Positions 21,382 to 52,471 of a DNA stretch of 64,000 nt are shown in pieces (positions within the stretch are counted from its first letter, which is position 1; every line of letters begins with the position of its first letter). Below the pieces are notes generated by a model. The model saw only the letters and a program-made list of their open reading frames with translations. It was not told the origin of the DNA and ran no database searches. The stretch is taken from NCBI RefSeq assembly GCF_004682015.1, contig NZ_SMLM01000003.1:496001-560000 (forward strand), written 5' to 3'. The position numbers and the translations under genes are program-made. This DNA comes from Ramlibacter henchirensis. GTDB taxonomy: Bacteria > Pseudomonadota > Gammaproteobacteria > Burkholderiales > Burkholderiaceae_C.

Positions 21382-21410
21382 TTGACAGATCAATATATGA
21401 AAAGTAATGT
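21382..21410 (+). promoter_or_regulatory. sigma-70 promoter with embedded MarR operator candidate
   Basis: TTGACA (21382-21387) and TAATGT (21405-21410) are spaced by 17 nt and point toward the plus-strand operon. The AT-rich motif ATATGAAAAGTAATG (21395-21409) fills the spacer and -10. The same motif, with one change, occurs at the other MarR gene (25735-25749), so it is a good operator candidate. Confidence 0.7.
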
Positions 21411-21445
21411 ACCCCGCCGGCGTTGCGCCGGGCAGGAGTACACAG

Positions 21446-22519: not shown

Positions 22520-22520
22520 C

Positions 22521-25764: not shown

Positions 25765-25817
25765 AAATCCGCACGCAGGCAGTGCGAGGCGTTGCTTACC
25801 CGGGAAACAGGAAGGCC

Positions 25818-27956
25818 ATGGCTGAGAGATCGTTCGTCGAGGAAGTGAAGAAGCTGCGGCTGGGCGCCGGGGAAACGTTCCGCGGCGAGGGCATCCTGGC
25901 CGTGACCAAGGCGCTGCTGGAATCGGGCGTGGCGTACGTCGCCGGCTACCAGGGCGCGCCGATCTCGCACCTGATGGATGTGCTGGCCGACGCGCAGGAC
26001 ATCCTGGCCGAGCACGGCATCCGGTTCGAGAACAGCGCGAGCGAGGCCACGGCCGCAGCCACGCTGGCCGCGTCGGTGAACTATCCGTTGCGCGGCGCCG
26101 TGACCTTCAAGGCGACCGTCGGCACCAACGTGGCCTCGGACGCGCTGGCCAACCTGGCCTCGGGCGGCGTCACCGGCGGCGCGCTGATCGTGGTGGGCGA
26201 GGACTACGGCGAAGGCTCTTCGATCATGCAGGAGCGCAGCCACGCCTTCGCGATGAAGTCGCAGATCTGGATGCTCGACCCGCGTCCCAACCTCCCGTCC
26301 ATCGTCGCCGCGGTCAAGCAGGGCTTCGAGCTTTCGGAAGCCAGCAACACGCCGGTGATGCTGCAGCTGCGCATCCGCGCCTGCCACGTGCACGGCGAGT
26401 TCACCGCCTCCGACAACAAGCGCCCGGCCTTCACCATCGGCGACGCGCTGGACAACCCGCAGCGCGACGTCAGCCGCATCGTCCTGCCGCCCGCGAGCTT
26501 CCAGCACGAGCAGGAGAAGGTGCGCGACCGCTGGCCCGCCGCCGTGCGCTACATCGAGTCGCACGGGCTCAACGAATTCTTCGCCGAAGGCACGGACGAC
26601 ATCGGCATCGTCGTGCAGGGCGGCTGCTACAACACGCTGGTCCGCGTGCTCGAGCGGCTGGGCTTCGCCGACATCTACGGCAACAGCCGGGTGCCGCTGT
26701 ACGTGATGAACGTGGCCTATCCGGTGATCGACTCCGAAGTGCGGCGCTTCTGCGAAGGCAAGCGCGCGGTGCTCATGGTCGAGGAAGGCCAGCCCAACTT
26801 CGTCGAGCAGAACGTGGCTTCCATCCTGCGCCAGTCCGGTGCCGCGACCGCGCTGCACGGCAAGGACATGCTGCCGGTCGCGGGCGAATACACGGCCGCC
26901 GAGACGCTCAAGGGCGTGCGCGCGTTCCTCGAGCGCTACGGCCGCCTCCAGCCTGAACCGGCGCCGGTGAAGGTTCCCAAGGTGATCCCGCTCAAGCCGC
27001 TGGCCGAGGACGTGCAGGCCCGGCCGCCGGGCTTTTGCACCGGCTGCCCGGAGCGCCCCATCTTCTCGGCCATGAAGCTGGTCGAGCGCGAGCTCGGGCC
27101 GCACCACGTCAGCGCCGACATCGGCTGCCACCTGTTCTCCATCCTGCCGCCCTTCAACCTCGGCAACACGACGATGGGCTACGGCCTCGGCACGGCGGGC
27201 GCCGCGGCGCTGAACGCGCCGGACCACAAGCGCGCCATCAGCGTGATGGGTGACGGCGGCTTCTGGCACAACGGCCTGACCAGCGGCATCGCGAACGCGG
27301 TCTTCAACCGCAACGACAACCTGACGATCGTCGTCGACAACAACTACACCTCGGCCACCGGCGGCCAGGACATCCTGTCGTCGCAGGCCAGCAACCCGAC
27401 GCGCAGCACCCGCCACGAGATCGAACAGGCCGTGCGAGGCGTCGGCGTCAAGTGGGTCCGCACGATGCGGCGCACGTACGACGTGAAGGGCATGCGCGAC
27501 GCGCTGCGCGAGGCGCTCACGACCAGGGACAAGGGCCCCAAGGTCCTGATCGCGCAGTCCGAGTGCATGCTGAACAAGCAGCGCCGCGAGAAGCCTTTGG
27601 TGCGCAAGGCCGTGGCCGAGGGCAAGCGGGTCGTGCGCGAGCGTTTCGGCATCGATCCCGACACCTGCACGGGCGACCACTCCTGCATCCGCCTGAACGG
27701 CTGCCCCTCGCTGTCGATCAAGCCCAACCCCGACCCGCTGCGCACCGACCCGATCGCGACCGTGATCGATTCCTGCGTCGGCTGTGGACTTTGCGGCGAG
27801 GTCGCGCATGCCGCCGTGCTGTGCCCGTCCTTCTACAAGGCCCAGATCGTCACCAACCCCACGGGCTGGGACAAGTTCCGCCGCAAGGTGTCGGGCGCGG
27901 TGATCGGCTACCTCCAGCGCCGCGACGCGCGCGCCCGCCGCCAGTACGCGTTCTGA
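25818..27956 (+). CDS. iorA: indolepyruvate ferredoxin oxidoreductase alpha subunit-like protein
   Basis: A 712-residue TPP-dependent 2-oxoacid oxidoreductase subunit that oxidatively decarboxylates arylpyruvates to acyl-CoA with ferredoxin as acceptor. The N-terminal pyrimidine-binding domain starts near YVAGYQGAPISHLMDVL. The pyrophosphate domain has FCTGCPERP and the GDG...NN motif (VMGDGGFWHNGLTSG to VVDNNYTSATGGQ). The C-terminus has two 4Fe-4S-type clusters, CTGDHSCIRLNGC and CVGCGLCGEVAHAAVLC. ATG 25818 has AGGAAG 5 nt upstream. iorB follows 7 nt later. It is divergent from the frameshifted MarR gene. Phenylpyruvate, indolepyruvate or hydroxylated analogues are plausible substrates. 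Confidence 0.9.
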   Translation: MAERSFVEEVKKLRLGAGETFRGEGILAVTKALLESGVAYVAGYQGAPISHLMDVLADAQDILAEHGIRFENSASEATAAATLAASVNYPLRGAVTFKATVGTNVASDALANLASGGVTGGALIVVGEDYGEGSSIMQERSHAFAMKSQIWMLDPRPNLPSIVAAVKQGFELSEASNTPVMLQLRIRACHVHGEFTASDNKRPAFTIGDALDNPQRDVSRIVLPPASFQHEQEKVRDRWPAAVRYIESHGLNEFFAEGTDDIGIVVQGGCYNTLVRVLERLGFADIYGNSRVPLYVMNVAYPVIDSEVRRFCEGKRAVLMVEEGQPNFVEQNVASILRQSGAATALHGKDMLPVAGEYTAAETLKGVRAFLERYGRLQPEPAPVKVPKVIPLKPLAEDVQARPPGFCTGCPERPIFSAMKLVERELGPHHVSADIGCHLFSILPPFNLGNTTMGYGLGTAGAAALNAPDHKRAISVMGDGGFWHNGLTSGIANAVFNRNDNLTIVVDNNYTSATGGQDILSSQASNPTRSTRHEIEQAVRGVGVKWVRTMRRTYDVKGMRDALREALTTRDKGPKVLIAQSECMLNKQRREKPLVRKAVAEGKRVVRERFGIDPDTCTGDHSCIRLNGCPSLSIKPNPDPLRTDPIATVIDSCVGCGLCGEVAHAAVLCPSFYKAQIVTNPTGWDKFRRKVSGAVIGYLQRRDARARRQYAF

Positions 27957-27963: not shown

Positions 27964-29481
27964 ATGAGCAGAGTGCAGCCGATCAAGATCGCGATCCTCG
28001 CCATGGGCGGCGAGGGCGGCGGCGTGCTGGCCGACTGGATCGTCGACCTGGCGGAGTTCAACGGCTTCATGGGCCAGAGCACTTCCGTGCCCGGGGTCGC
28101 GCAACGCACCGGCGCGACCATCTATTACGTCGAGCTGTACCCGAAGGCGCAGGCCGAGGCCGACGGCGGCACGCCCGTGCTGGCGCTGATGCCGCTGCCG
28201 GGCGATGTGGACGTGGTGATCGCTTCCGAGCTGATGGAAGCGGGCCGGGCGGTGGCGCGCGGACTGGTCACGCCGGACCGCACCACGCTGATCGCGTCGA
28301 CCCACCGCGTCTATTCCATCGTCGAGAAGACCGCGATGGGCGACGGCCGCGTGGACCCTTCCAATCTGCTCGCGCACGCGCAAGCCGCCGCCAAGCGTTT
28401 CGTGCACTTCGACATGGAGAAGGCCGCCGACGAGGCCGGCAGCGTGATCAGTGCCGTCCTGTTCGGCGCTCTCGCCGGCACCGGCGTGCTGCCGTTCAGC
28501 CGCGCGCAGTTCGAGGCGACCATCGAGCGCGGCGGCGTGGGCGTCAAGACGAGCCTGAAGGCCTTCGGCGCCGCCTTCGATCGCGCCAACGTGCCGGTCG
28601 AGCTCAAGCAGGTGGACGAGCCGTTCTCGATGCCCGCTCCGGCCGACCCGAAGCTCAAGGCGCTGGTCGACCGCATCGCGCGCGACTTCCCCGCGCAGGC
28701 TCACCCGGTGCTCGTGGAAGGCGTGCGTCGTCTCGTCGACTTCCAGGATCCCGCCTATGCCGGCCTCTACCTCGACCGGCTGCAGAAGGTGCGCGACCTG
28801 CCCGCCGGCGGCGATCCCCAGCTGCTGTTCGAGACGGCGCGCCACCTCGCGCTCTGGATGTCGTACGAGGACACGATCCGCGTGGCCGAACTCAAGACGC
28901 GCTCCTCGCGGTTCGAACGCGTGGAAGCCGAAGTGCGCCTCAAGCCCGACCAGCTGCTGGCCATCAACGAATTCATGCACCCGCGCTTGCAGGAGATTGC
29001 CGAGACGCTGCCCGCGGGGCTGGGCAACTGGCTGCTGCGCTCGGGCTGGCCGCGTCGCCTGGTCGAGCGCTTTACCCGCGAAGGGCGCGTGGTCCGCACC
29101 AGCTCGCTCGGCGGTTTCATGACGCTGTACCTCCTGTCGGGCATGAAGCGCTGGCGGCGCAGCACGCTGCGCTATGCCGCGGAGAACCGTCGCATCGAGG
29201 AATGGCTGGCGCACATCGCGGCCGCGGCCTCCCTCAATCCGCAACTGGCCACCGAAGTGGCGCAGTGCCAGCGGCTGGTCAAGGGGTACAGCGAGACGCA
29301 CGAGCGCGGCCTGCGCAACTACGAGACGCTGATGGCCGCCGTGCGTGAAGGCGGCGCCCGCCTGGCACCGGCCACGGTCCGCGAGCTGCGCGACGCCGCC
29401 CTGTCCGATGAACGCGGCGACAAGCTGCGCATCGCGCTCGGCCGGCATGCATTGACACCCCAGCTGCGAGAGGCCGCATGA
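27964..29481 (+). CDS. iorB: indolepyruvate oxidoreductase beta subunit-like protein
   Basis: A 505-residue partner of IorA. The N-terminal gamma-type domain (about 1-190), IAILAMGGEGGGVLADWIVD, binds the CoA/TPP interface, and STSVPGVAQRTGATIYYVE is the conserved IorB segment. Residues about 200-505 form an added helical domain rich in Arg and Leu, seen in proteobacterial IorB and absent from the 200-residue archaeal subunit. It lies 7 nt after iorA. The oxidoreductase probably makes aryl-acyl-CoA for the downstream region. The next gene begins 58 nt later on the same strand. Confidence 0.87.
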   Translation: MSRVQPIKIAILAMGGEGGGVLADWIVDLAEFNGFMGQSTSVPGVAQRTGATIYYVELYPKAQAEADGGTPVLALMPLPGDVDVVIASELMEAGRAVARGLVTPDRTTLIASTHRVYSIVEKTAMGDGRVDPSNLLAHAQAAAKRFVHFDMEKAADEAGSVISAVLFGALAGTGVLPFSRAQFEATIERGGVGVKTSLKAFGAAFDRANVPVELKQVDEPFSMPAPADPKLKALVDRIARDFPAQAHPVLVEGVRRLVDFQDPAYAGLYLDRLQKVRDLPAGGDPQLLFETARHLALWMSYEDTIRVAELKTRSSRFERVEAEVRLKPDQLLAINEFMHPRLQEIAETLPAGLGNWLLRSGWPRRLVERFTREGRVVRTSSLGGFMTLYLLSGMKRWRRSTLRYAAENRRIEEWLAHIAAAASLNPQLATEVAQCQRLVKGYSETHERGLRNYETLMAAVREGGARLAPATVRELRDAALSDERGDKLRIALGRHALTPQLREAA

Positions 29482-29539: not shown

Positions 29540-30532
29540 ATGACCACGGACGAGGGCCTGCTGCTCACGCTGCGCGTCGAGGAAGCGCGCACGTTGAAGC
29601 CGCTGATCCGGATGCTGCGGCTGCGCGCCGAAGACGGCGCCGTGCTGCCCCCGTTCACCGCCGGCTCCCACATCCGCGTCAAGGTGAAGCTGCCGGACGG
29701 AAGCGAGGACTGGCGGCACTATTCGCTGGTCAATCTCTCGGCCGGCGGCGACCTGCACACGCCGCACGAGTACACCATCGCCGTTCGCCGCGAAGACGAT
29801 GGCCGGGGCGGCTCGCGCTTCATGCACCAGGCGCTGCAGGCGGGGGACCGCGTCGTCGTCGAAGCGCCGCGCAACGAATTTCCGCTGCGGGACGGCCCCG
29901 GCTGCGCCGTCCTGCTGGCGGGAGGCATCGGCATCACGCCGATGACCAGCATGGCCGCGCAGCGCCGCGCCGACAAGCTGCCGGTGCGAATGGTGTACGC
30001 CGGCCGCAGCCGCGAGCTGATGGCCTTCCTGCCGCAATTGCAGGACCTGCTCGGCGAAGACCTCCAGGTGCACGCCGATGCCGAAGCCGGCGGTCCGCTG
30101 GACGTCGACCGCGTGCTCGATGCCTGCGGCGATGCCGACCAGCTCTATGTCTGCGGCCCGAAGGTGCTGCTGGACAAGGTCCTGGAGCGGACCCAGGCGC
30201 GCGGCTGGACGCATGACCGGGTCCACTTCGAACTGTTCACGACCCCGGTCGCCGAAGTGGGCGACCAGCCCTTTGAGGTGGTGCTGTCGCAAAGCGGCCA
30301 GAGCTTCCAGGTGCCCGTCGGGCAGACGGTGCTGGACTGCCTGATCGAGCATGGCTGCGATCCCCTGTTCGATTGCAAGCGAGGCGAATGCGGGGTCTGC
30401 TCCGCGTCCGTCCTCGAAGGCGACATCGACCACCGCGACTACTTCCTGAGCGATGCCGAGAAGGCGAGCGGGAAGGTCATGCAGATCTGCGTCTCGCGCG
30501 TGCGCGGGCCGCGACTCGTCCTGGACATGTGA
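29540..30532 (+). CDS. PDR/VanB-family oxidoreductase (FMN/NAD/2Fe-2S dioxygenase reductase)
   Basis: A 330-residue phthalate-dioxygenase-reductase-type electron-transfer protein. Domain order: flavin-binding barrel with WRHYSLVN (RxYS, about residues 59-65), NAD domain with LLAGGIGITPMTSM, and a C-terminal plant-type ferredoxin with CKRGECGVCSASV plus a final Cys in MQICVSR, giving the four 2Fe-2S ligands. It moves electrons from NADH to a Rieske oxygenase. The dioxygenase alpha gene follows 13 nt after its stop with its own ribosome-binding site. It is the only reductase near two oxygenase pairs, so it may serve both. Confidence 0.92.
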   Translation: MTTDEGLLLTLRVEEARTLKPLIRMLRLRAEDGAVLPPFTAGSHIRVKVKLPDGSEDWRHYSLVNLSAGGDLHTPHEYTIAVRREDDGRGGSRFMHQALQAGDRVVVEAPRNEFPLRDGPGCAVLLAGGIGITPMTSMAAQRRADKLPVRMVYAGRSRELMAFLPQLQDLLGEDLQVHADAEAGGPLDVDRVLDACGDADQLYVCGPKVLLDKVLERTQARGWTHDRVHFELFTTPVAEVGDQPFEVVLSQSGQSFQVPVGQTVLDCLIEHGCDPLFDCKRGECGVCSASVLEGDIDHRDYFLSDAEKASGKVMQICVSRVRGPRLVLDM

Positions 30533-30545
30533 AGGAGCCATTCCA

Positions 30546-31871
30546 GTGAAGACCACGCAAATGAACTACCGCGGCAACCCGGAGGCGCTGCGTGCGCTCG
30601 TCGAACCGGATCGCGTTCACCGCGACATCTACATCAACCAGGAAGTGTTCGAACTGGAGCAGGAACACTTCTTCGCCAACACCTGGAACTACGTCGGCCA
30701 CGACAGCCAGGTCCCCAAGCCCGGCGACTACATGACGAACGAAATCGGCGGCCGCCCGCTGATCGTCGTGCGCCACACGGACGGCAGCGTCAAGGTGATG
30801 ATGAACCGGTGCGCCCACAAGGGATCGCGCCTGGTCAACGACGGCTGCGGCAACACGGGCAAGTTCTTCCGCTGCCCCTACCACGCCTGGACCTTCAAGA
30901 CGGACGGTTCGCTGCTGGCCATCCCGCTGAAGCTGGGCTACGAAGGCACGCGGCTTTCGGAATGCGAGAGCGCCAAGGGCCTGGTGACGCTCAAGAACGT
31001 GCGCGTCTACCGCGGCTTCATCTTCGCCAAGATCAACGACGTCGGCCCCGATTTCGAGGCGTACTTCGGCGAATCGCTCAGCTCCATGGACAACATGGCC
31101 GACCGCTCGCCCGAGGGCGAACTGGAGATCGCGGGCGGGTGCCTGCGCTTCATGCACCAGTGCAACTGGAAGATGTTCGTCGAGAACCTGAACGACACCA
31201 TGCATCCGATGGTGGCGCACGAGTCGTCCGCCGGCACCGCCAAGAAGATGTGGGCCGACAAGCCCGCCGATGCGCCCAAGCCCATGGCCATCGAGCAGTT
31301 CGTGCCCTTCATGTCCGACTACAAGTTCTTCGAGGACATGGGCGTGCGGGTGTTCGACAACGGCCACAGCTTCTCGGGCGTCAACTTCAGCATCCACAGC
31401 AAGTACTCCGGCATCCCGGCCTACGAGCAGGCGATGAAGGCGAAGTACGGCGACGAACGCGCGGCGCAGATCCTGGGCCTGACGCGCCACAACACCGTCT
31501 ACTACCCGAACCTCACCATCAAGGGCGCCATCCAGGCCATCCGCGTCGTCAAGCCGATCGCGGCCGACAAGACGCTGGTGGAGAGCTGGACCTTCCGCTT
31601 GAAGGGCGCGCCGCCGGAGCTGCTGCAGCGCACCACCATGTACAGCCGGCTGATCAACTCGCCTTTCTCGGTCGTCGGCCACGACGACCTGCAGGCCTAC
31701 CGCGGCATCCAGGCCGGCCTGCAGGCGAGCGGCAACGACTGGGTCAGCCTGCATCGCAACTTCCACGAGAGCGAGATCGGCAAGGCGGAGGTGACCACCA
31801 ACGGCACCAGCGAGATCTCCATGCGCAACCAGTACCGGGCCTGGGCGCGGTACATGACGCTCGACATGTGA
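30546..31871 (+). CDS. Rieske aromatic ring-hydroxylating dioxygenase alpha subunit (copy 1)
   Basis: A 441-residue catalytic subunit adding O2 to an aromatic ring. The Rieske cluster ligands are Cys89 and His91 (NRCAHKG) with Cys110 and His113 (CPYHAW). The catalytic domain holds the mononuclear iron ligands His220 and His225 and the bridging Asp217 (LNDTMHPMVAHES), spaced as in naphthalene dioxygenase. GTG 30546 is supported by GAAGGAG 8 nt upstream; ATG 30561 is an alternative. The beta-subunit gene follows 10 nt later. It is paralogous to 40278-41594 (shared TWNYVGH, GKFFRCPYHAWT and FAKIND). The substrate is unknown; CoA-ligase neighbours suggest an aromatic acid or its CoA ester. Confidence 0.93.
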   Translation: MKTTQMNYRGNPEALRALVEPDRVHRDIYINQEVFELEQEHFFANTWNYVGHDSQVPKPGDYMTNEIGGRPLIVVRHTDGSVKVMMNRCAHKGSRLVNDGCGNTGKFFRCPYHAWTFKTDGSLLAIPLKLGYEGTRLSECESAKGLVTLKNVRVYRGFIFAKINDVGPDFEAYFGESLSSMDNMADRSPEGELEIAGGCLRFMHQCNWKMFVENLNDTMHPMVAHESSAGTAKKMWADKPADAPKPMAIEQFVPFMSDYKFFEDMGVRVFDNGHSFSGVNFSIHSKYSGIPAYEQAMKAKYGDERAAQILGLTRHNTVYYPNLTIKGAIQAIRVVKPIAADKTLVESWTFRLKGAPPELLQRTTMYSRLINSPFSVVGHDDLQAYRGIQAGLQASGNDWVSLHRNFHESEIGKAEVTTNGTSEISMRNQYRAWARYMTLDM

Positions 31872-31881
31872 AGGGGCGGCC

Positions 31882-32364
31882 ATGAGCGACATCACCCGCC
31901 AGGACCTGATCGATTTCGTCGTGCGCGAAGCGCGCCTGCTGGACGCCAAGCGCTACGAGGAGTGGAACGCGCTGTTCGCGGACGACGGCATCTACTGGGT
32001 GCCGCTGGTGCCCGACCAGCCGGACGGCATCAATCACACCTCGCACATGTACGAGGACAAGCTGCTGCGCGACCTGCGCATCGAGCGCCTCAAGAGCCCG
32101 CGCGCCTTTTCGCAGCAGCCGCCGAGCCGGCCGCACCACCTGCTGCAGACGCCCACCGTCGAGACGTTCGACGCGGCCGCGAACCGTTACGTGGTGCGCA
32201 CCGAATTCCATTACACCGAGTCGCAGGGCGACGAGCTGCACTTCTTCGTCGGCCACACCCTGCATGAGCTCACGGTGCAGGGCGGGGCGCTGCGAATCAC
32301 GCTCAAGCGCGTGAACCTGCTCAATCCCGACGCCGCGCTGCCCGCCGTCCAGCTGTTCATCTGA
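31882..32364 (+). CDS. aromatic ring-hydroxylating dioxygenase beta subunit (copy 1)
   Basis: A 160-residue NTF2-like small subunit that builds the alpha3beta3 oxygenase. Characteristic stretches are EARLLDAKRYEEWNALFADD and GIYWVPLVPDQPDG, then LRIERLKSPRAFSQQPPSRP. It has no metal ligands, as expected. ATG 31882 follows AAGGGGCGG. The gene sits between the alpha subunit and the acyl-CoA synthetase in one transcript and has a paralogue at 41591-42049. Confidence 0.9.
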   Translation: MSDITRQDLIDFVVREARLLDAKRYEEWNALFADDGIYWVPLVPDQPDGINHTSHMYEDKLLRDLRIERLKSPRAFSQQPPSRPHHLLQTPTVETFDAAANRYVVRTEFHYTESQGDELHFFVGHTLHELTVQGGALRITLKRVNLLNPDAALPAVQLFI

Positions 32365-32370
32365 GGCCGC

Positions 32371-33993
32371 ATGAGAACCGTCCACGACCGATTCACCGCC
32401 ACCGCCGCGCGGGATCCGGGTGGCGAATTCCTGTACATCGATGGGGTGACTGCGCAGGTCTATGGCATCGATGCTGCGCCCATCACCTGGGCGCAGGCCG
32501 CCGCGGAGGTCGAGCGCCTGCGCGCCGCCTATGCCGCCGCGGGCTACGGACACGGCCATCGCGCCGGCCTGCTGCTGGAGAACCGGCCGGCCTTCCTGTT
32601 CCACTGGCTCGCCCTCAACGCGCTCGGCGTCAGCGTGGTGCCGATCAACTCGGAGATGCGCTCGGCCGAACTGGAATACCTGATCGGCCACAGCGAGATC
32701 TGCCTGGCGGTCACGCTGCCGCAACGCGCGGACGATCTGAGGGCGGCGGCTGCCGCTGTCGGCGTCACGCTGCGCCTCTGGGATTCTTCGAGCGCGGCGC
32801 CCCCCGAGCGGGCGCCCAACGCCGCGCCCGCCGCCGGTTCGCCCGGGCTGGAGACCGAGTGCGCGCTGCTCTACACCTCCGGCACCACCGGCCGGCCCAA
32901 GGGCTGCCGGCTCTCGAACGAGTACTTCCTGCGGGCCGGTGAGTGGTATGCGGGGCTGGACGGCGTCTGCTCCGTCCGCCCGGGGCAGGAGCGGATCATC
33001 ACGCCGCTGCCGCTGAACCACGTGAACGCGATGGCGTTCTCCGCGATGGTGGTGATCACCGCGGGCGGTTGCCTCATCCAGCTCGACCGCTTCCATCCCA
33101 AGAGCTGGTGGCAGAGCGTGCGCGATAGCCGCGCGACGATCGTGCACTACCTCGGCGTGATGCCCGCGATGCTGCTGTCCGCGCCCGCGTCGCCGGCCGA
33201 CCGCCAGCATGCCGTGCGCTGGGGGTTCGGCGCCGGCGTCGATCGAAAGAACCACGCGGTGTTCGAGCAGCGCTTCGGTTTTCCGCTGGTGGAGGCCTGG
33301 GCCATGACCGAAACCGGTGCGGCCGCCTGCGTGATGGCGAACCACGAACCGCGCCACGTGGGCGCCAGCTGCTTCGGCCATCCCGAAGCCTTCGTGCAGA
33401 TCCGTCTGGTCGACGACGAAGGCCAGGACGTCGAACCCGGAGTGCCGGGCGAGCTGCTGGTGCGCTCCAGCGGCCCGGACCCGCGCCGTTATTTCTTCTC
33501 CGGCTACCTGAAGGACGAAGCCGCCACCGCGGAGGCGTGGGCCGGCGGCTGGTTCCACACCGGCGACATGGTGCGGCGCGACGCCGGCGGCCACCTGTAC
33601 TTCGTCGACCGCAAGAAGAACGTGATCCGCCGCAGCGGCGAGAACATCTCCGCGGTCGAGGTGGAGAGCATCCTCAACCAGCACCCGGCGGTGAAGAGTT
33701 CCGCCGTCGCCGCGGCGCCGGACGAGGTGCGCGGCGACGAGGTGCTGGCCTGCATCATCACGCGCCATCCGGTGCCGGAGGCCGAGCGCGCGGCGCTCGC
33801 GGCGAGCATCGTCGACCACGCGCTGGCGCAGCTCGCGTACTACAAGGCGCCCGGCTATGTCGCGTTCGTGGACGAAGTGCCGCTCACGATGTCGCAGAAG
33901 ATCCAGCGCGGCCAGCTTCGCGAGCTGGCCCGGTCCTTGCCAGGGAAGCCGCATTGCATCGACATGCGCGCCAGGAAGAAAAGGCAGGGGTGA
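32371..33993 (+). CDS. AMP-dependent acyl-CoA synthetase
   Basis: A 540-residue ANL-superfamily ligase that activates a carboxylic acid with ATP and CoA. The P-loop-like A3 motif is LLYTSGTTGRPKGC; the A5 region is AWAMTETGAA, A7 is GWFHTGDMVRRD, and A8 is VDRKKNVIRRSGENIS. The late catalytic Lys of motif A10 is likely in VPLTMSQKIQRGQLRE. It starts 7 nt after the beta-subunit stop and overlaps the thiolase-like gene by one base (TGATG). It probably makes the CoA ester used by the thiolase-like/DUF35 pair. Substrate choice cannot be inferred. Confidence 0.9.
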   Translation: MRTVHDRFTATAARDPGGEFLYIDGVTAQVYGIDAAPITWAQAAAEVERLRAAYAAAGYGHGHRAGLLLENRPAFLFHWLALNALGVSVVPINSEMRSAELEYLIGHSEICLAVTLPQRADDLRAAAAAVGVTLRLWDSSSAAPPERAPNAAPAAGSPGLETECALLYTSGTTGRPKGCRLSNEYFLRAGEWYAGLDGVCSVRPGQERIITPLPLNHVNAMAFSAMVVITAGGCLIQLDRFHPKSWWQSVRDSRATIVHYLGVMPAMLLSAPASPADRQHAVRWGFGAGVDRKNHAVFEQRFGFPLVEAWAMTETGAAACVMANHEPRHVGASCFGHPEAFVQIRLVDDEGQDVEPGVPGELLVRSSGPDPRRYFFSGYLKDEAATAEAWAGGWFHTGDMVRRDAGGHLYFVDRKKNVIRRSGENISAVEVESILNQHPAVKSSAVAAAPDEVRGDEVLACIITRHPVPEAERAALAASIVDHALAQLAYYKAPGYVAFVDEVPLTMSQKIQRGQLRELARSLPGKPHCIDMRARKKRQG

Positions 33994-35162
33994 TGGCCAG
34001 GCGGCTCTCCTATGAAGGCGTCGCGGTGGCCGTGCCGGTCACCGTGCCCTACGTGCGCTATTCCACCCGCGCCGCCCACTGGTTCATCGGCCAGGCGCTG
34101 GAGCGGCTGGTGAAGGCGTCGGGGCTGCGCAAGGACCAGATCGACGGCCTGACGGTGAGCAGCTTCTCGCTCGCGCCCGACACGGCCGTGGGCGTGACGC
34201 AGCACCTGGGCGTCACGCCGCGGTGGCTGGACCACATCCCCACCGGCGGCGCCTCGGGCGTGATGTCGCTGCGCCGCGCGGCGCGCGCGGTGCAGGCGGG
34301 GGACGCCGACGTCGTGGCCTGCATCGCGGCCGACACCAACCACGTCGAGTCCTTCCGCCTCACGCTGGGCGCCTTCAGCAACTTCGCGCGCGACGCCAGC
34401 TATCCCTACGGCTCGGGCGGGCCGAACTCGATCTTCGCGTTCATCACGTCCAACTACATGCGCACGTACGGGGCGACGCGCGAGGACTTCGGCCGCATCG
34501 CCGTGGCGCAACGCACGAATGCGCTGCAGAACCCCAATGCGCTGTTCAAGAAGCCGCTCACCATGGACGAGTACATGGGTGCGCGCTCGATCTCGGACCC
34601 GATCCACCTGTTCGACTGCGTGATGCCCTGCGCTGGCGCCGAAGCCTTCCTCGTGATGCGCGAGGAGCGGGCGCGAGACCTCGGCCTGCCTCATGTGCTG
34701 GTGCGCGGCGCGATCGAACGGCACAACGCCTATGCCGAGGACCCCGTCATGGTGCGCGGCGGCTGGCGGATGGACCGCGACGACCTCTATGCGCAGGCCG
34801 GGGCGAAGCCCGCCGACGTGGACTTCATCCAGACCTACGACGACTACCCCGTGATCGTGATGCTGCAGTTCGAGGACCTGGGCTTCTGCGAGAAGGGCGA
34901 GGGCCCGGCGTTCGTGCGCGAACAGTCGCTCACCTTCGACGGCAGCTTTCCCAACAACACCACCGGCGGGCAGCTGTCTTGCGGCCAGGCCGGTGCGGCC
35001 GGCGGATTCCTGGGCATGACCGAGGCGATTCGCCAGCTGACGGACCAGGCGGGCTCGCGAGCGGTTCGCGACGCGAAGCTGGGTCTCGTCACCGGATTCG
35101 GGATGGTCACGTACGACCGCTGCCTGTGCACCGGGGCGGTGCTGCTGGGGAGGTCGTCATGA
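33993..35162 (+). CDS. thiolase-like protein (SCP-x/Ltp2-like) lacking the canonical Cys and His
   Basis: A 389-residue thiolase fold of the group that pairs with DUF35 proteins. The nucleophile position reads PTGGASGVM (residues 84-91) with no Cys, and the GHP motif is replaced by TGGQLSCGQAGAAG (324-337), so His is Gln. Tyr-rich TYDDYP (281-286) precedes FEDLGFCEKGEG, recalling Ltp2, where tyrosines serve a retro-aldol C-C cleavage of CoA esters. A late Cys377/379 pair (YDRCLCTG) remains. It overlaps the upstream ligase by 1 nt and the DUF35-SDR gene in ATGA, so the two probably form a complex. Aldolase activity is inference; a non-catalytic role is also possible. Confidence 0.82.
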   Translation: MARRLSYEGVAVAVPVTVPYVRYSTRAAHWFIGQALERLVKASGLRKDQIDGLTVSSFSLAPDTAVGVTQHLGVTPRWLDHIPTGGASGVMSLRRAARAVQAGDADVVACIAADTNHVESFRLTLGAFSNFARDASYPYGSGGPNSIFAFITSNYMRTYGATREDFGRIAVAQRTNALQNPNALFKKPLTMDEYMGARSISDPIHLFDCVMPCAGAEAFLVMREERARDLGLPHVLVRGAIERHNAYAEDPVMVRGGWRMDRDDLYAQAGAKPADVDFIQTYDDYPVIVMLQFEDLGFCEKGEGPAFVREQSLTFDGSFPNNTTGGQLSCGQAGAAGGFLGMTEAIRQLTDQAGSRAVRDAKLGLVTGFGMVTYDRCLCTGAVLLGRSS

Positions 35163-36412
35163 CGATGCCGCTGATGAAGCCCAAGCGCAAGAACCCGGTT
35201 CTGCGCACGCGGCAGATGAACCTGCCGCCGTGGGCGCGCGGGCGTGTCGCCTTGGGCATGACGGCCGCGGCGGCGGAGGGGCGGTTCGAGCTCCAGGTCT
35301 GCAAGGATTGCCAGGCCGTGCAGTACCCGCCGCGCGATGCGTGCCACCGCTGCCTGTCGCCGCGCCTGCAGTGGCGCCCGCAATCCGGCCAGGGCGAGCT
35401 GCTGAGCGCGACCACGCTGCACCACAGCAACGACCTGTTCTTCCGCGAACGCCTGCCGTGGCGCCTGGGCCTGGTGAAACTGGATTCCGGACCGTCGGTG
35501 ATCGTGCACCTGCACGGCGAGGTGGGCGAGCCGCCGACGCGGGTGCACGTGGGCGCGCGGCTCGATCGCGCGGGGCAGGCGGTCTTGATTGGATTTCCCG
35601 AAAAAGGGGGCGAACACATGTCGGACGACAGCATGCTGCGCGAGATGACCAGCGATCCGAAGTACCGCAAGGTGCTGGTCACGGATGGCAAGACGGCGGT
35701 CGGCCAGGCGATGGTGCAGGCGCTGGTCAAGGCCGGGGCCGACATCGTCTGGGTCGGCCACGCCGAGCCGTGGAAGAAGCTGCCCGGCTTCTCCGACATC
35801 AGCGCGATGAAGGAAGTGACGCTGGTGCCGCTGGACCTGACGAACGGGCGCTCCGTCACCGAATTGGCCGGCGAGATCGGCGGCAAGGTCGACATCGTCA
35901 TCAACAACGCCGAGGTGCACCGGTCCTTCGGCATCTCCGGCCGCCGCGGCACCGACGTCGCCAAGATGGAGATGGACATCAACTACTTCGGCCTGCTGCG
36001 GCTGGCGCAGGAGTTCGGCCCGGCCCTCCGTGCCCGCTCGGCCGACGGCGTGACCCACGCCGCGGCCTGGGTGAACCTGCTGTCGATCTATTCGCTGAGC
36101 AATTTCCCGCCGCACGGGACGTTCTCGGCCTCGAAGGCCGCGGCGCTTTCGCTGTCGCAATGCCTGCGCGCGGAGATGCGGCCGGCGGGCATCCGCGTGA
36201 TCAACGTGTTCCCCGGCCCGATCGACGACGAGTGGAACCAGAACCTGCCGCCGCCGAAGGTGGCGCCCGCCGCGCTGGCCAGCGCCATCGTCAAGGCGCT
36301 GAAGGAAGGCATCGAGGATGTCTACCCGGGCGACGTGGCGCAGGAGTGGCTGGAGCGCTGGCGCGACAACCCCAAGGTGCTCGAGCGCGAACTCGCGGCC
36401 GGAGGAAGCTGA
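35159..36412 (+). CDS. fusion: DUF35 Zn-ribbon/OB-fold domain plus degenerate SDR domain
   Basis: A 417-residue uninterrupted frame. Residues 40-150 are a DUF35 protein: zinc ribbon Cys48, 51, 62 and 65 (CKDCQ, CHRC), then an OB-fold with GELLSATTLHHSND. Residues 154-417 are a short-chain dehydrogenase-like domain starting MSDDSMLREM. In the SDR part the Gly motif is VTDGKTAVGQ, NNAG is NNAE, and the catalytic Tyr is Phe322 (TFSASK, Lys326 and Ser309 kept). DUF35 proteins usually partner thiolase-like enzymes, and this one overlaps that gene in ATGA. An internal ATG 35618 has AAAAGGGGG upstream, so a separate SDR could also be made. The reductase activity is doubtful. Confidence 0.8.
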   Translation: MTMPLMKPKRKNPVLRTRQMNLPPWARGRVALGMTAAAAEGRFELQVCKDCQAVQYPPRDACHRCLSPRLQWRPQSGQGELLSATTLHHSNDLFFRERLPWRLGLVKLDSGPSVIVHLHGEVGEPPTRVHVGARLDRAGQAVLIGFPEKGGEHMSDDSMLREMTSDPKYRKVLVTDGKTAVGQAMVQALVKAGADIVWVGHAEPWKKLPGFSDISAMKEVTLVPLDLTNGRSVTELAGEIGGKVDIVINNAEVHRSFGISGRRGTDVAKMEMDINYFGLLRLAQEFGPALRARSADGVTHAAAWVNLLSIYSLSNFPPHGTFSASKAAALSLSQCLRAEMRPAGIRVINVFPGPIDDEWNQNLPPPKVAPAALASAIVKALKEGIEDVYPGDVAQEWLERWRDNPKVLERELAAGGS

Positions 36413-36413
36413 C

Positions 36414-37211
36414 ATGGAACAAGCAACGAGCAATGTCCTGGCCGGCGTGGCGCTGGGCCTCGCCACCGGCCGCATCCGCGTGGTCGACCTGACGCAGACC
36501 CTCACGCCGGACTTCCCGCAGATCGCGCTGCCGCCCGAGATGGGCCAGTGCTGGCCGTTCCGCATCGAGGAGGTGTCCAAGTACGACGAGCGCGGCCCGG
36601 GCTGGTACTGGAACAACTTCTCCTGCGGCGAGCACACGGGGACGCACTTCGACGCGCCCATCCACTGGATCTCCGGCCGCGACCTGGCCCACAACTCGGT
36701 CGACACGATCCCGGTGGAGCACTTCGTCGCACCGGCCTGCGTGATCGACTGCTCCGAACAGGTGAAGGCCGATCCCGACTACCTGCTGACGGTGGAGGAC
36801 ATCGAACGCTTCGAGAAGGCGCATGGCCGCATCCCGGCCGGCGCGTGGGTGCTGATGCGCACCGACTGGTCCAAGCGCACCGACCCCGAGGCCTACCAGA
36901 ACTTCGACGAAACCGGCCAGCACACGCCGGGCCCGAGCTCCGAGGCCGTGCAGTTCCTGGTCGAGCAGCGGCAGGTGCTCGGTTTCGGTTCGGAAGCCAT
37001 CGGCACGGATGCGGGGCAGGGCTACCACCTGCGTCCGCCGTACCCGTGCCACTACTTCATGCACGGCGCCGGCCGCTATGGCCTGCAGTGCCTGGCCAAC
37101 CTGGACAAGCTCCCGCCCACGGGATCGCTGCTGATCTGTCCGCCCCTGAAGATCGAGAAGGGCAGCGGCAGTCCCTTGCGCGTGCTAGCCCTGGTGGAGG
37201 ACGCGCGATGA
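36414..37211 (+). CDS. cyclase-family protein (kynurenine-formamidase-like metal hydrolase)
   Basis: A 265-residue protein of the cyclase/KynB superfamily, metal-dependent hydrolases acting on amides or on cyclic or CoA-type esters. The metal motif HTGTHFDAPIHW (His74 to Pro82, with His78 and Asp80) is complete, and a second His lies in HGAGRYGLQCL. There is no signal peptide. ATG 36414 is 1 nt after the DUF35-SDR stop. The SDR gene downstream overlaps it in ATGA. In aromatic pathways such enzymes open lactams or formyl anilides, so a ring-opening or deformylating step is plausible. The substrate is unknown. Confidence 0.87.
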   Translation: MEQATSNVLAGVALGLATGRIRVVDLTQTLTPDFPQIALPPEMGQCWPFRIEEVSKYDERGPGWYWNNFSCGEHTGTHFDAPIHWISGRDLAHNSVDTIPVEHFVAPACVIDCSEQVKADPDYLLTVEDIERFEKAHGRIPAGAWVLMRTDWSKRTDPEAYQNFDETGQHTPGPSSEAVQFLVEQRQVLGFGSEAIGTDAGQGYHLRPPYPCHYFMHGAGRYGLQCLANLDKLPPTGSLLICPPLKIEKGSGSPLRVLALVEDAR

Positions 37212-37936
37212 CCCCCCGGAAGATCGCCGCGGTCACCGGCGGCAGCGCCGGCATCGGCAAGAGCATCTGCGAGCAGCTGCTGGCCGAGGACTACGAGGTC
37301 GTTTCGCTGGCCCGGCGCCGCAGCGAAGCCTCGCATCCGCGGCTGCACAGCATCGAGGTCGACCTGATGGACCGCGCCGCCACCGCCCAGGCCGCGCAGG
37401 AACTGGTCCGCAAGTTCGAGGTGAACACGCTCATCCACAACGCGGGCGTCATCCGCCCCGCACTGCTGCCCGACGTGCAGCTCGAGGACCTCGACGCGCT
37501 GGTCAACCTGCACCTGGGCTGCGCCATCCAGCTGGTGCAGGCGGCGCTGCCCGCGATGCGCCAGCAGCGCTTCGGCCGCATCCTGCTGCTGTCCTCGCGC
37601 GCCGCGCTGGGCGCGCAGACACGCACCAGCTATTCCGCCACCAAGGCCGGCATGCTGGGCATGGCCCGCACCTGGGCGCTGGAGCTGGCGCCGCACGGGA
37701 TCACGGTGAACGTGGTGGCGCCGGGGCCGGTGCACACCGAGATGTTCTACGACGTGATCCCCGCCGGCAGCGAGCGCGAGCAGAAGCTCGCGGCCTCCAT
37801 CCCGGTCGGACGCATCGGCGAGCCGCAGGACGTCTCGCGCGCGGTTTCGTTCTTCATCAGCCCCGATGCCGGCTTCATCACCGGCCAGGTTCTGTACGTG
37901 TGCGGGGGCGCCAGCCTCGGCAGCCTTTCCCTCTGA
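37208..37936 (+). CDS. short-chain dehydrogenase/reductase
   Basis: A 242-residue classical SDR. The cofactor motif is AAVTGGSAGIGKSI, the structural motif is IHNAG (NNAG variant), and the catalytic tetrad is intact: Ser in LLSSRAALG and Tyr-x3-Lys in SYSATKAGM. LARRR after beta-2 suggests NADP preference. It has the intact active site that the upstream DUF35-SDR fusion lacks, so it may provide the actual hydroxy/oxo conversion. It overlaps the cyclase-family gene in ATGA. The first binding-protein gene follows after 11 nt. Confidence 0.9.
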   Translation: MTPRKIAAVTGGSAGIGKSICEQLLAEDYEVVSLARRRSEASHPRLHSIEVDLMDRAATAQAAQELVRKFEVNTLIHNAGVIRPALLPDVQLEDLDALVNLHLGCAIQLVQAALPAMRQQRFGRILLLSSRAALGAQTRTSYSATKAGMLGMARTWALELAPHGITVNVVAPGPVHTEMFYDVIPAGSEREQKLAASIPVGRIGEPQDVSRAVSFFISPDAGFITGQVLYVCGGASLGSLSL

Positions 37937-37947: not shown

Positions 37948-39096
37948 ATGAAAGCAATCAAAACAATAGCGGCCACCCTGCTGGGCGCCGGGCTCGCGCT
38001 GAACGCGCTGGCCGCCGACCTGAAGGTGGGCTTCATCACCTCGCAGTCCGGACCGGTCTCGTCGCTGGGCATCCCCTATGCGAAGGGCATCCAGGCCGCT
38101 GCCGCGTACAAGCCCGAAGTCGCCGGCCGCAAGGTGCAGCTGATCCAGCTGGACGACGGCTCCGATCCGTCCACGGCGGCGCGCAATGCACGCAAGCTGA
38201 TCGACGAGGACAAGGTCGACGTCATCATCGGCACGGCGGGCTCGCCGGGCGCCCTGGCGATCGCCGCCGTCGCTCGCGAAACGAAGACGCCGCTGATCTC
38301 CATCGCCAACGCCAACCTTCCGGGCGAGGACGGCGCCTGGATGGTCACGCTGCCCCAGCCCGCGCCGCTGATGATCAGCGCCATCGTCGACCGCATGAAG
38401 AAGAGCGGCATCAAGACGGTGGGCTACATCGGCTTCTCCGACGCCTGGGGCGACCTGGTCTACGACTCGCTCACGCAGGCCGCCGGCGCCGCCGGCATCA
38501 AGGTGCTGACCAACGAGCGATTCGCCCGCGCCGACAGCTCGGTCACCGGCCAGGTGCTCAAGATCGTGGCGGCCCGTCCCGACGCGGTGATCACCGGCAC
38601 CTCGGGCACGCCCGGTGCGCTGCCTTACCGCGCGCTGGCCGAGCGCGGCTACAAGGGCCCGATCTACGGCACGCATGCGCTGATCAACCCCGACTTCGTG
38701 CGCGTCGGCGGCGCTGCGGTCGAAGGCCTGCTGGCGCCCACCGGCCCGGTGATCGTGGCCGAGCAGCTGCCGGCCGACAACCCGATCCGAAAGGTGTCGA
38801 TGGACTTCCGCGCCGCCTACCAGAAGGCCAACGGCGCCGCGCCCACCGACGCTTTCTCCGCCTACTCGTTCGACGCCTGGCTGCTCTTCGCCGACGCGGC
38901 GCAGCGCGCGACCGCGAAGGCCGAACCCGGCACCCCGCAGTTCCGCGTGGCCCTGCGCGACGCGATCGTCAACACCAAGGAGCTGGTGGGCACGCATGGC
39001 GTCTACAACTTCAAGCCGGACAACCGGTACGGATCGGACGAGCGCTCGCGCGTGATCGTCAAGCTCGAAAAAGGTCAATGGAAACTGGTGCCGTGA
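37948..39096 (+). CDS. LivK-type ABC substrate-binding protein (paralogue A)
   Basis: A 382-residue periplasmic binding protein. A signal peptide ends near residue 23 (LALNALAADLK), followed by KVGFITSQSGPVSSLGIPYA. It belongs to the Liv family subgroup that binds aromatic and hydrophobic carboxylates. The closest relatives in view are the paralogues at 39096 and 42073, sharing YAKGIQA-like, AARNARKLI, GYIGFSDAWGDLVYDSL and THGVYNFK segments. ATG 37948 has CAGGAG upstream. Its stop overlaps the next start in TGATG. It presumably feeds the single LivHMGF importer downstream. Confidence 0.92.
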   Translation: MKAIKTIAATLLGAGLALNALAADLKVGFITSQSGPVSSLGIPYAKGIQAAAAYKPEVAGRKVQLIQLDDGSDPSTAARNARKLIDEDKVDVIIGTAGSPGALAIAAVARETKTPLISIANANLPGEDGAWMVTLPQPAPLMISAIVDRMKKSGIKTVGYIGFSDAWGDLVYDSLTQAAGAAGIKVLTNERFARADSSVTGQVLKIVAARPDAVITGTSGTPGALPYRALAERGYKGPIYGTHALINPDFVRVGGAAVEGLLAPTGPVIVAEQLPADNPIRKVSMDFRAAYQKANGAAPTDAFSAYSFDAWLLFADAAQRATAKAEPGTPQFRVALRDAIVNTKELVGTHGVYNFKPDNRYGSDERSRVIVKLEKGQWKLVP

Positions 39097-40247
39097 TGAA
39101 AACTTCCCTCACCCGATTCGCCATCGCGGCCCTGGGCGCCGCGCTCGCCGCGCCGGTGCTCGCCGCCGACATCAAGGTCGGCGTCATCACCTCGCTGTCG
39201 GGGCCCGTCTCGGCGCTGGGCATCCCGTACGCGAAGGGCATCGACGCCGCCAAGGCGTACAAGTCCACCGTGGGCAAGCACAACGTGCAGGTGATCGTGC
39301 TGGACGACGCCTCCGACCCCACGGTGGCGGCCCGCAACGCGCGCAAGCTCGCCACGGAGGACAAGGTGGACGTGCTGATCGGCACCTCCGGCGTCCCCGG
39401 CGCGCTGGCCATCTCGGGCGTTGCCCGTGAAAGCAAGACACCGCTGATCTCGCCCACGCCGCTGAGCGTGCCGGCCGACGACCAGGGCTGGACCGTCACG
39501 GTCTCGCAACCCTTCCCGCTGATGGTGGCGGCGGTGGTCGACAAGATGAAGGCGAGCGGGGTCAAGACGGTGGCCTTCATCGGCTTCTCCGACGCGCTGG
39601 GCGACCTGGCCTACGACTCGCTGGTGAAAGCGGCCGAGCCGGCCGGCATCAAGGTGACCGCCAACGAGCGCTATGCCCGCGGCGATTCCTCCGTGGCCGG
39701 CCAGATCCTCAAGATCGTCGCGTCCCGTCCGGACGCGGTGTTCGCCGGCAACTCCGGCACCCCGGGTGCGCTGCCGTACCTGGCGCTCGCCGAGCGCGGC
39801 TACAAGGGCCAGATCTACGGCACGCACGGCCTCATCACCGCCGACTTCGTGCGCGTCGGCGGCAATGCCGCCAATGGCCTGATGGTGCCCAGCGGCCCCG
39901 TGATGGTGGCCGACCAGCTGCCCGAGACGAACCCGGTGCGCAAGGTCGCGCTCGACTACCGTGCCGCCTACCAGAAGGTGCACGGGTCCGCGCCCGTCGA
40001 CGCCTTCTCGGCCTACACGTTCGACGCCTGGCTGGTGTTCGCCGACGCCGCGGCGCGCGCGGCGGCCAAGGCCGAACCGGGCACGCCGGAGTTCCGCGTC
40101 GCGCTGCGCGACGCGATCCATGAGACCAAGGAACTGCCCGGCACGCACGGCGTGTTCACCTTCAAGCCCAACGAGCCTTACGGGCTGGACAAGCGCTCGG
40201 CGGTGGTGATCCGGCTCGAAAAGGGCCAGTGGAAGCTGGCGCCCTGA
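39096..40247 (+). CDS. LivK-type ABC substrate-binding protein (paralogue B)
   Basis: A 383-residue periplasmic binding protein. The signal peptide is about residues 1-24 (ALAAPVLAADIK), and the mature start is KVGVITSLSGPVSALGIPYA. It differs from paralogue A mainly in the pocket-side loops (for example LSVPADDQG against IANANLPGED), which suggests a related but different ligand. It starts on the last base of the preceding stop, so the two are translated together. The second oxygenase alpha gene follows after 30 nt. Confidence 0.92.
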   Translation: MKTSLTRFAIAALGAALAAPVLAADIKVGVITSLSGPVSALGIPYAKGIDAAKAYKSTVGKHNVQVIVLDDASDPTVAARNARKLATEDKVDVLIGTSGVPGALAISGVARESKTPLISPTPLSVPADDQGWTVTVSQPFPLMVAAVVDKMKASGVKTVAFIGFSDALGDLAYDSLVKAAEPAGIKVTANERYARGDSSVAGQILKIVASRPDAVFAGNSGTPGALPYLALAERGYKGQIYGTHGLITADFVRVGGNAANGLMVPSGPVMVADQLPETNPVRKVALDYRAAYQKVHGSAPVDAFSAYTFDAWLVFADAAARAAAKAEPGTPEFRVALRDAIHETKELPGTHGVFTFKPNEPYGLDKRSAVVIRLEKGQWKLAP

Positions 40248-42049: not shown

Positions 42050-42072
42050 GCTTCACCCACCAGGAGACACCG

Positions 42073-43224: not shown

Positions 43225-43225
43225 A

Positions 43226-52466: not shown

Positions 52467-52471
52467 GAGCC

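Follow-up and report, generated by a model that had tools for sequence, protein, structure and literature searches.

An auxin-degradation (iad) locus in Ramlibacter henchirensis and a suggested reassignment of its side-chain cleavage and isatinate steps

What kind of chemistry is encoded by a compact set of genes for a Rieske dioxygenase, a coenzyme A (CoA) ligase, a cysteine-less thiolase-like protein, a DUF35 protein fused to a short-chain dehydrogenase/reductase (SDR), a cyclase-family hydrolase and a second SDR? The question is raised by a locus of Ramlibacter henchirensis within a stretch of 64,000 nucleotides (assembly GCF_004682015.1, contig NZ_SMLM01000003.1, positions 496,001 to 560,000), hereafter the window, which an earlier note had read as an undescribed module and a new pathway. 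The module is the known iad locus for degradation of the auxin indole-3-acetic acid, gene for gene as in Variovorax, and hence both descriptions are wrong: a characterised homologous cluster, an outcome with which the note itself had reckoned, is on record in papers and in structure matches. The locus being of a known kind, what is new is a reassignment, suggested by the sequences, of two of its least understood steps. At a probability which we put at roughly 85%, iadC to iadJ are those of the iad auxin locus, IadG and IadH cleave the side chain by a retro-aldol reaction to isatin and acetyl-CoA, and IadI converts isatin to isatinate.

The eight genes iadC to iadJ (Table 1) were delineated from open reading frames (ORFs) and Pfam matches, and all lie on the plus strand with spacings of 13, 10, 6, -1, -4, 1 and -4 bases. 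Gaps of ten bases or shorter had been claimed; this holds for six of the seven, the remaining 13-base gap between iadC and iadD hinging on the GTG start picked for the alpha subunit. Every gene kind listed in the earlier note is present on the one strand, although its title omitted the reductase and the Rieske beta subunit that lie within the same module.

In Variovorax, the locus consists of iadC (reductase), iadD and iadE (Rieske oxygenase), iadF (acyl-CoA synthase), iadG ('ketothiolase'), iadH ('alcohol dehydrogenase'), iadI ('kynurenine formamidase'), iadJ (dehydrogenase), iadK2/K3 and a MarR regulator (PMC9613470, PMC10374108, PMC12633357, PMC11630574). The genes iadA and iadB (iotA/iorB) are described as exclusive markers of iad-like loci (PMC9613470), and iadD together with iadE as necessary and sufficient for the loss of indole-3-acetic acid in Variovorax. 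Both markers occur in the window directly upstream of iadC, and the order iadR/iadA-B-C-D-E-F-G-H-I-J-K2 is reproduced. Against the Protein Data Bank (PDB), IadD matches 9o71_A (E 1.8e-258) and 7yls_B (2.4e-258), the next best being 8k0a (1.8e-43), while IadE matches 7yls_A (3.5e-84) with a next best of 1.9e-12. We take 9o71 and 7yls, along with 7ylt and 7kfo/7kki matched by flanking genes, to be Variovorax iad proteins, going by the content of the papers, as the PDB table names no organism.

Gene neighbourhoods were compared in 80 loci fetched by IadH, whose identity to the window is 86-92% in five Ramlibacter records and 81-85% in Variovorax. A gene was counted as present at a coverage of at least half and identity thresholds of 45-60% depending on the gene, and part of the absences is due to loci cut by contig ends. 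All eight genes iadC-J occur in 66 of the 80 loci, far beyond chance, and in 65 of these they follow the window's order on one strand; iadA and iadB join them in 61 loci (60 in the window's order). The exception, L088, is a locus in which the best iadD match falls on a second Rieske gene. A MarR gene is present in 63 loci, every time on the opposite strand. A second iad subtype was also encountered at 3.8-16 kb of L090 (genome G146) and 0-13.5 kb of L094 (genome G044), where the identity of IadD drops to 58-59% and the iadF position is taken by a ligase resembling that at 46840-48414 of the window (57%).

The side-chain-cleaving step depends on the nature of IadG. Its PDB ranking is led by 9myr (E 6.7e-53), followed by 6ok1 (1.5e-45) and 4u4e (2.8e-45), the last deposited as 'Thiolase' yet having no Cys at the aligned site; Cys-bearing thiolases such as 7yvy and 7pxp rank below these three. 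Presumably 6ok1 is Ltp2. The top match, 9myr, is the CtSal aldolase with its DUF35 partner (PMC12329534). In an alignment of 78 rows (the window and 77 relatives), the thiolase Cys site corresponds to Gly85-Gly86-Ala87 of IadG, both the Gly at the nucleophile position and the whole triplet GGA being present in 77 rows, with a gap in the other; thus the thiolase nucleophile is missing, and the ordinary thiolase with Cys in place that had been considered as the alternative is not what was found. At the position of the thiolase His motif lies Tyr282-Asp-Asp-Tyr285 (YDDY), which is invariant in all 78 rows, as are Gln327 and Gln332. The motifs YDDY and GGQLSxGQ recur in all ten further sequences, and GGA in the nine that cover the site; six of the ten are distant, from other families (59-65% identical), and L089 comes from the contig that had already given L025 in the first set. 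The corresponding residues are Tyr302 and Cys304 (YDCY), Gln347 and Gln352 in CtSal, and Tyr294 (YDHF) and Tyr344 in TcLtp2, the Tyr being the catalytic base in both (PMC12329534). Given that IadG retains the catalytic Tyr of the YDxF/Y motif, we infer that it works like the Ltp2/Sal aldolases; it counts as neither, because Asp replaces the His of one and the Cys of the other.

IadH supplies what such an aldolase would require, a DUF35 domain whose zinc cysteines (C48, C51, C62 and C65) are conserved in 81/81 rows, the complex itself being putative. Its SDR half has departed from the classical pattern. TDGKTxxG replaces TGxxxGxG in the close rows, and at the YxxxK site Lys is present in all 81 rows with Phe in place of Tyr in 78, so that both residues are kept in only three (L014, L066 and L085). 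Nine further sequences (L089 being a duplicate) keep the pair in no case, the two sites reading F/K in three, Y/Q in three, and H/C, H/H and A/A in one each. In contrast, IadJ has intact TGxxxGxG, Ser, Tyr142 and Lys146, with Tyr and Lys in 77/77 rows, window included. The reading that fits IadH best is a DUF35 protein partnering IadG, with an SDR domain that has degenerated and is probably not a normal dehydrogenase. A first idea, that this domain reduces isatin to dioxindole, was dropped since the YxxxK motif is not kept.

IadI is by sequence an isatin hydrolase. Its best PDB matches, 5nmp (E 2.1e-112), 5nna and 5nnb (about 4e-109) and 4j0n (1.2e-83), are all named so, and the next protein, 8f9x, follows at 3.6e-36. 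The diagnostics of isatin hydrolase are WxW, a His/His/Asp metal site and GLQC (PMC6117287), and IadI shows WYW at 64-66, H74/H78/D80/H84 and GLQC at 223-226. The preprint PMC12633357 annotates the protein as kynurenine formamidase and suggests a broad amidase. The expected product isatinate has the formula C8H7NO3, which the same preprint reports; the assignment of formula to compound is ours.

How these proteins might act in succession can be outlined with the Variovorax results, in which IadCDE oxidises indole-3-acetate, IadJ is assigned a dehydrogenation to dioxindole-3-acetate, and normal formation of anthranilate depends on IadF, IadG, IadH and IadI (PMC12633357). IadF would then form dioxindole-3-acetyl-CoA, a beta-hydroxyacyl-CoA with a tertiary alcohol, and IadG, seated on the DUF35 domain of IadH, would cleave it by retro-aldol reaction, with Tyr282 as the base, to isatin and acetyl-CoA. 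Thiolysis requires a beta-keto group, which dioxindole-acetyl-CoA does not have. IadI would hydrolyse isatin to isatinate, whose decarboxylation would then lead towards anthranilate or anthraniloyl-CoA. Four relevant compounds have been detected in Variovorax cultures, namely isatin, dioxindole, isatinic acid and anthranilic acid (PMC9613470). The succession put forward in the earlier note, namely ring oxidation, CoA activation and retro-aldol cleavage, agrees with the mutants and metabolites of the preprint and with the active-site residues, the retro-aldol step being deduced from the latter.

The second reassignment concerns IadA and IadB. IadA possesses a GDG motif for thiamine pyrophosphate (TPP) at 490-521, CxxC at 419-422 and Cys 665/668/671/681 resembling Fe-S cluster cysteines (the clusters are predicted), features which place it in the 2-oxoacid:ferredoxin oxidoreductase superfamily. 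It scores 287.5 bits with IOR_alpha, below the cut-off of 650.9. IadB scores only 27 bits against 206 with IOR_beta, and 727 bits against a cut-off of 348 with NF006179, 'indolepyruvate oxidoreductase subunit beta family protein'. Isatinate, as an aromatic 2-oxo acid, would suit the 2-oxoacid:ferredoxin oxidoreductases to which IadAB belong, and our hypothesis is that they may convert isatinate and CoA to anthraniloyl-CoA and CO2. About 11 kb after iadI the window encodes an FAD monooxygenase-OYE fusion, called ACMR-like here. By its domain make-up we take it to resemble 2-aminobenzoyl-CoA monooxygenase/reductase, while its NCBI family is named bifunctional salicylyl-CoA 5-hydroxylase/oxidoreductase.

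Co-occurrence of these genes was surveyed in genome sets that share ancestry, with gene positions and genome lists transcribed by hand from search tables. IadA homologues were counted at an identity of at least 60%, a cut chosen after the family result had been seen and kept for the phylum set run later; the 10, 15 and 30 kb limits were likewise picked after seeing the distances. Among 150 genomes of the family, IadA is found in 19 and IadI in 16, all 16 lying within the 19 (Fisher 7e-19), and the IadA carriers with no IadI match are G016, G099 and G114 (3/19). Leaving out the nine genomes with IadH, IadI carriers have IadA in 7/7 (6e-10), or 6/6 (9e-9) on dropping G101 too, whose iad genes are seemingly split over contigs and which probably holds a broken-up iad locus. 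An IadI match was found in none of the 29 family genomes having only less similar IadA homologues (51-58%). In the phylum set of 398 Pseudomonadota genomes, 25 have IadI, and IadA accompanies it in 23 of these against 0/35 controls, within 10 kb in 17 of the 25; among the 17 phylum genomes having no IadH, IadA is present in 15 and within 10 kb of IadI in 13. The controls, every tenth genome of the phylum sample minus IadI-positives, are unmatched for genome size, quality and lineage, and several of them are small or incomplete, which makes the contrast look stronger; an IadA match of 28-30% is seen in three of the 35.

A full-length ACMR-like protein is encoded in 24 of the 25 IadI carriers of the phylum set against 4 of the 35 controls, and its gene lies within 15 kb of IadI or IadA in 17 of the 25. 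The exceptions are G381, with neither IadA nor the ACMR-like protein, and G470, with an ACMR-like gene 130 bases from IadI and no IadA. Sampling of genera is uneven, g248 alone contributing 8 of the 25; counted per genus, IadA is present in 14/16, the ACMR-like protein in 15/16 and an IadI-IadA pair within 10 kb in 10/16. The gene cannot serve as an iad-genome marker inside the family, where 106 of the 150 genomes match it (E 1e-80 or better, some to one half only); because it is so common there, its weight as evidence comes solely from the phylum contrast and from linkage. All nine IadH genomes encode it at full length, four of them (G000, G090, G097 and G146) at most 30 kb from iadH on the same contig and the other five on a different contig.

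That iadAB always travels with iad is contradicted by G146, whose iad locus (L090) has an ACMR-like gene after the operon and no adjoining iadAB; its IadA homologue (65%) is encoded on a different contig, beside a second isatin hydrolase. Conversely, several loci combine isatin hydrolase and iadAB with no other iad genes, and in two of them (L106 and L113) the pair is accompanied by a styrene-monooxygenase-like oxygenase, a flavin reductase, an SDR-like gene and an amine-oxidase-like flavoprotein. These two resemble the indole-degradation clusters described in PMC12538310 and PMC6221969. Such a flavoprotein was also seen with isatin hydrolase and iadAB in the more distant L121 and L125. In L103 the order is iadA-iadB-thioesterase-like-ACMR-like, and a 4HBT-type thioesterase beside iadAB or the ACMR-like gene was observed there (8.3-8.8 kb, by similarity only), in L110 (5.9-6.3 kb), in L112 (5.7-6.2 kb) and in the window (51640-52077). 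This recurring thioesterase could release anthranilate from its CoA ester. In L123 a RidA-type (Ribonuc_L-PSP) gene at 13969-14367 adjoins the ACMR-like gene, which would suit an enamine product.

The published account of the side-chain step has IadG as ketothiolase and IadH as alcohol dehydrogenase reductively removing the acetyl side chain to give dioxindole. It draws on the annotations and metabolites of the preprint, in particular on C8H7NO2, dioxindole by formula, which accumulates in place of isatin when iadI is deleted (PMC12633357); the C-terminal part of IadH does score as an SDR, and the NCBI families nearest IadG are named acetyl-CoA acetyltransferase and lipid-transfer protein, none of them above cut-off. 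We nevertheless consider it improbable, as IadG is devoid of the nucleophilic Cys and carries Tyr (YDDY) for the thiolase His motif, the substrate bears a tertiary alcohol and not a ketone, and IadH lacks the Tyr or the Lys of YxxxK in 78/81 close rows and in 9/9 more (one a duplicate). Far less probable still is the proposal that the module is a new pathway for another aromatic acid: Rieske, ligase and aldolase-like genes would fit several such acids, and a second complete Rieske alpha/beta pair is located downstream, yet each component matches the auxin locus, the auxin-binding IadK2 and the isatin hydrolase included. Retro-aldol cleavage by IadG and IadH has its own difficulties. It requires dioxindole to arise from isatin through reduction by some other enzyme, and the preprint's opposing names, inferred from annotation, stand against it. 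Deletion of iadF, iadG, iadH or iadI each accumulates C10H9NO4 (dioxindole-3-acetate) (PMC12633357), and because all four do so the mutants do not single out IadG and IadH as one step. Asp284, found in 78/78 rows where Ltp2 has His and Sal has Cys, leaves the general acid of IadG unassigned, and three close IadH sequences retain both Tyr and Lys. The AlphaFold models, built from 16- and 17-row alignments of sequences 77-92% identical to the window, have a mean predicted local distance difference test of 49.5 for IadG and 59.4 for IadH, too poor to judge the complex by. With IadH 81-92% identical, the 80 loci are so closely related that conservation alone is weak evidence, and the six distant loci weigh more than these 80; moreover the iadR frame is broken in the window, where regulation may differ.

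For IadAB, the competing explanation is genuine indolepyruvate oxidoreductase activity, which would supply the pathway with indole-3-acetyl-CoA or reduced ferredoxin in place of acting on isatinate. The family names and the score of IadB above the NF006179 cut-off speak for it and against the isatinate proposal, indolepyruvate is a relative of auxin, and the oxygenases of the pathway need electrons. A Variovorax strain supplied with no more than iadC-K2 produces anthranilate nonetheless (PMC12633357), which likewise counts against a required IadAB step. On the other side, overexpression of this region, from which iadAB is missing according to the gene numbers in print, leads to strong accumulation of C8H7NO3 and C7H7NO (PMC9613470), although overexpression alone could explain this. 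We find the indolepyruvate explanation rather unlikely all the same, because IadA falls far below the IOR_alpha cut-off, IadA accompanies isatin hydrolase where IadH is absent (7/7 in the family, with the proviso on G101, and 15/17 in the phylum), the indole-type clusters L106 and L113 offer no obvious role for indolepyruvate, and isatin hydrolase matches are missing (0/29) where only the 51-58% IadA homologues occur. Among the top-listed papers of the open-access library searched, which leaves subscription papers such as the Bradyrhizobium enzymology uncovered, neither a retro-aldolase role for IadG/IadH nor a substrate for IadAB was found. The metabolic engineering review PMC6390333 mentions retro-aldol, indole-3-acetic acid and isatin once each, and the covered parts of PMC8383072 and PMC11434297 contained no assignment of the IadG/IadH or IadAB steps, the 'iad' names of PMC8383072 referring to a differently built cluster.

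The genes flanking the operon are compiled together with it in Table 1. The divergent MarR gene lies 34 bases from the iadA/iadB pair. Its best PDB matches are 7kfo/7kki (E 2e-35), aligned up to residue 134 of the 137 in the query and residue 133 of the 182-residue chain; the frame stops before the C-terminal part, the remainder of which continues in another frame, so that an intact repressor is not encoded as read. This could be a true break or a sequencing error, and the catabolic genes are intact despite it.

Table 1. Coordinates of the iad operon and its flanking genes in the window, with annotation and proposed roles.
Feature	Position	Strand	Annotation
iadR	25334-25747	-	MarR-family regulator (Pfam MarR), divergent from iadA
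iadA	25782-27956	+	TPP-dependent 2-oxoacid:ferredoxin oxidoreductase subunit, IorA-like; proposed isatinate oxidoreductase
iadB	27964-29481	+	IorB-like subunit, POR + DUF6537
iadC	29540-30532	+	Reductase, FAD/NAD domains and C-terminal 2Fe-2S (Pfam); place and order match published iad locus
iadD	about 30546-31871	+	Rieske oxygenase alpha subunit; GTG start assumed, ATG at 30561 alternative
iadE	31882-32364	+	Rieske oxygenase beta subunit; PDB match 7yls_A
iadF	32371-33993	+	Acyl-CoA ligase (Pfam); proposed dioxindole-3-acetate:CoA ligase, also from Variovorax orthologue mutant (PMC12633357)
iadG	33993-35162	+	Cys-less thiolase-fold protein; proposed retro-aldolase
iadH	35159-36412	+	DUF35 (zinc ribbon and OB fold) fused to SDR-like domain; proposed IadG partner/scaffold
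iadI	36414-37211	+	Cyclase-family hydrolase; isatin hydrolase by sequence
iadJ	37208-37936	+	SDR, intact motifs; dehydrogenase yielding dioxindole-3-acetate according to preprint PMC12633357
iadK2	37948-39096	+	Auxin-binding periplasmic protein; PDB match 7ylt_B (E 2.2e-207)
Second periplasmic binding protein	39096-40247	+	iadK3-like by position
Second Rieske alpha	40278-41594	+	59% identical to IadD
Second Rieske beta	41591-42049	+	Ring_hydroxyl_B (E 1.5e-25); overlaps end of second alpha gene
Third periplasmic binding protein and transporter	41653-46850	+	Binding protein in 3' part of ORF 41653-43224; branched-chain-type ABC permeases/ATPases
Second acyl-CoA ligase	46840-48414	+	NF004808, 809.5 bits (cut-off 722)
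ACMR-like gene	48522-50879	+	FAD monooxygenase-OYE fusion; NF006101, 1444 bits (cut-off 1078)
Downstream block	50879-56454	+	SDR, 4HBT thioesterase (51640-52077), acyl-CoA dehydrogenase, thiolase, acyl-CoA ligase

Homologues of the second Rieske alpha gene (at least 65% identity) are present in 64 of the 80 relatives' loci, and the thought that it has no beta subunit of its own was ruled out by the adjoining beta gene. Two acyl-CoA ligases are found near the ACMR-like gene, and would be needed if free anthranilate is an intermediate; the one preceding it is a possible anthranilate-CoA ligase, although its 57% relatives occupy the iadF position in L090 and L094. The block after the ACMR-like gene probably encodes downstream beta-oxidation-like steps. 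Upstream of the locus, an octopine-dehydrogenase-like gene and a 3-hydroxyacyl-CoA dehydrogenase gene occupy 21407-23507, and a homologue of the latter (84%) also precedes iadA in G097 (L092). Elsewhere in the window's own genome (G000) there is a second ACMR-like gene (83%) at G000:C3:276387-278741 and an IadA paralogue (53%) at G000:C1:24067-26217.

In the papers cited, as far as covered, neither the side-chain-cutting enzyme nor the route from isatinate to anthranilate is settled. With iad loci, bacteria can protect roots from the growth inhibition that auxin-producing bacteria bring about, and these genes are being built into engineered strains (PMC12633357). Retro-aldol cleavage by IadGH would carry an aldolase chemistry known from steroid breakdown over to auxin; formation of anthraniloyl-CoA by IadAB would give the two marker genes a function and would mean that iadC-K2, a construct of nine genes without iadAB, skips a step. 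Tentatively, and at somewhat less than even odds, both may be combined: IadG and IadH would represent a third type of thiolase-fold retro-aldolase (YDDY, a non-steroid substrate, a pseudo-enzyme SDR on the DUF35 protein), and IadAB an isatinate (2-aminophenylglyoxylate):ferredoxin oxidoreductase yielding anthraniloyl-CoA directly. Isatin hydrolase, IadAB and a 2-aminobenzoyl-CoA monooxygenase/reductase would, were this true, make up a transferable module that links auxin, indole and further sources of isatin to central metabolism with no free anthranilate.

Compared with known systems, the locus is closest to the iad locus of Variovorax paradoxus CL14 (PMC9613470, PMC10374108, PMC12633357), with the same genes in the same order, the iadA/iadB markers and structure-level matches for IadD, IadE, IadK2 and IadR; it differs in its genus, in the broken iadR frame and in the ACMR-like module downstream, the Variovorax loci compared here being others than that of CL14 itself. 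IadI shares the WxW pocket, His/His/Asp and GLQC with isatin hydrolase A of Ralstonia/Labrenzia (5nmp, 5nna; PMC6117287), and no sequence difference from these diagnostics was found. Like indolepyruvate ferredoxin oxidoreductase (IorAB), IadAB has two subunits, the TPP motif, CxxC, Fe-S-type cysteines and an IadB above the IorB-like cut-off, whereas IadA falls below the IOR_alpha cut-off and the pair is linked to isatin hydrolase in place of an indolepyruvate source. The ACMR-like gene would have in common with the 2-aminobenzoyl-CoA monooxygenase/reductase named in PMC6221969 an FAD monooxygenase fused to an OYE-like domain, and departs from it in the name of its NCBI model, its substrate being putative. 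With the Sal/Ltp2 steroid side-chain aldolases (PMC12329534; 9myr, 6ok1), IadG shares the Cys-less thiolase fold, the conserved catalytic Tyr and, in Gln327 and Gln332, the two glutamines of Sal, and IadH the DUF35 partner with four zinc cysteines as in ChsH2. The proposed substrate, dioxindole-3-acetyl-CoA, resembles that of the Ltp2 reaction in being a beta-hydroxyacyl-CoA whose alcohol is tertiary, though it is not a steroid; the motif is YDDY in place of YDHF or YDCY, and the DUF35 domain is fused to an SDR-like domain where that of the Sal/Ltp2 systems is fused to a hydratase.

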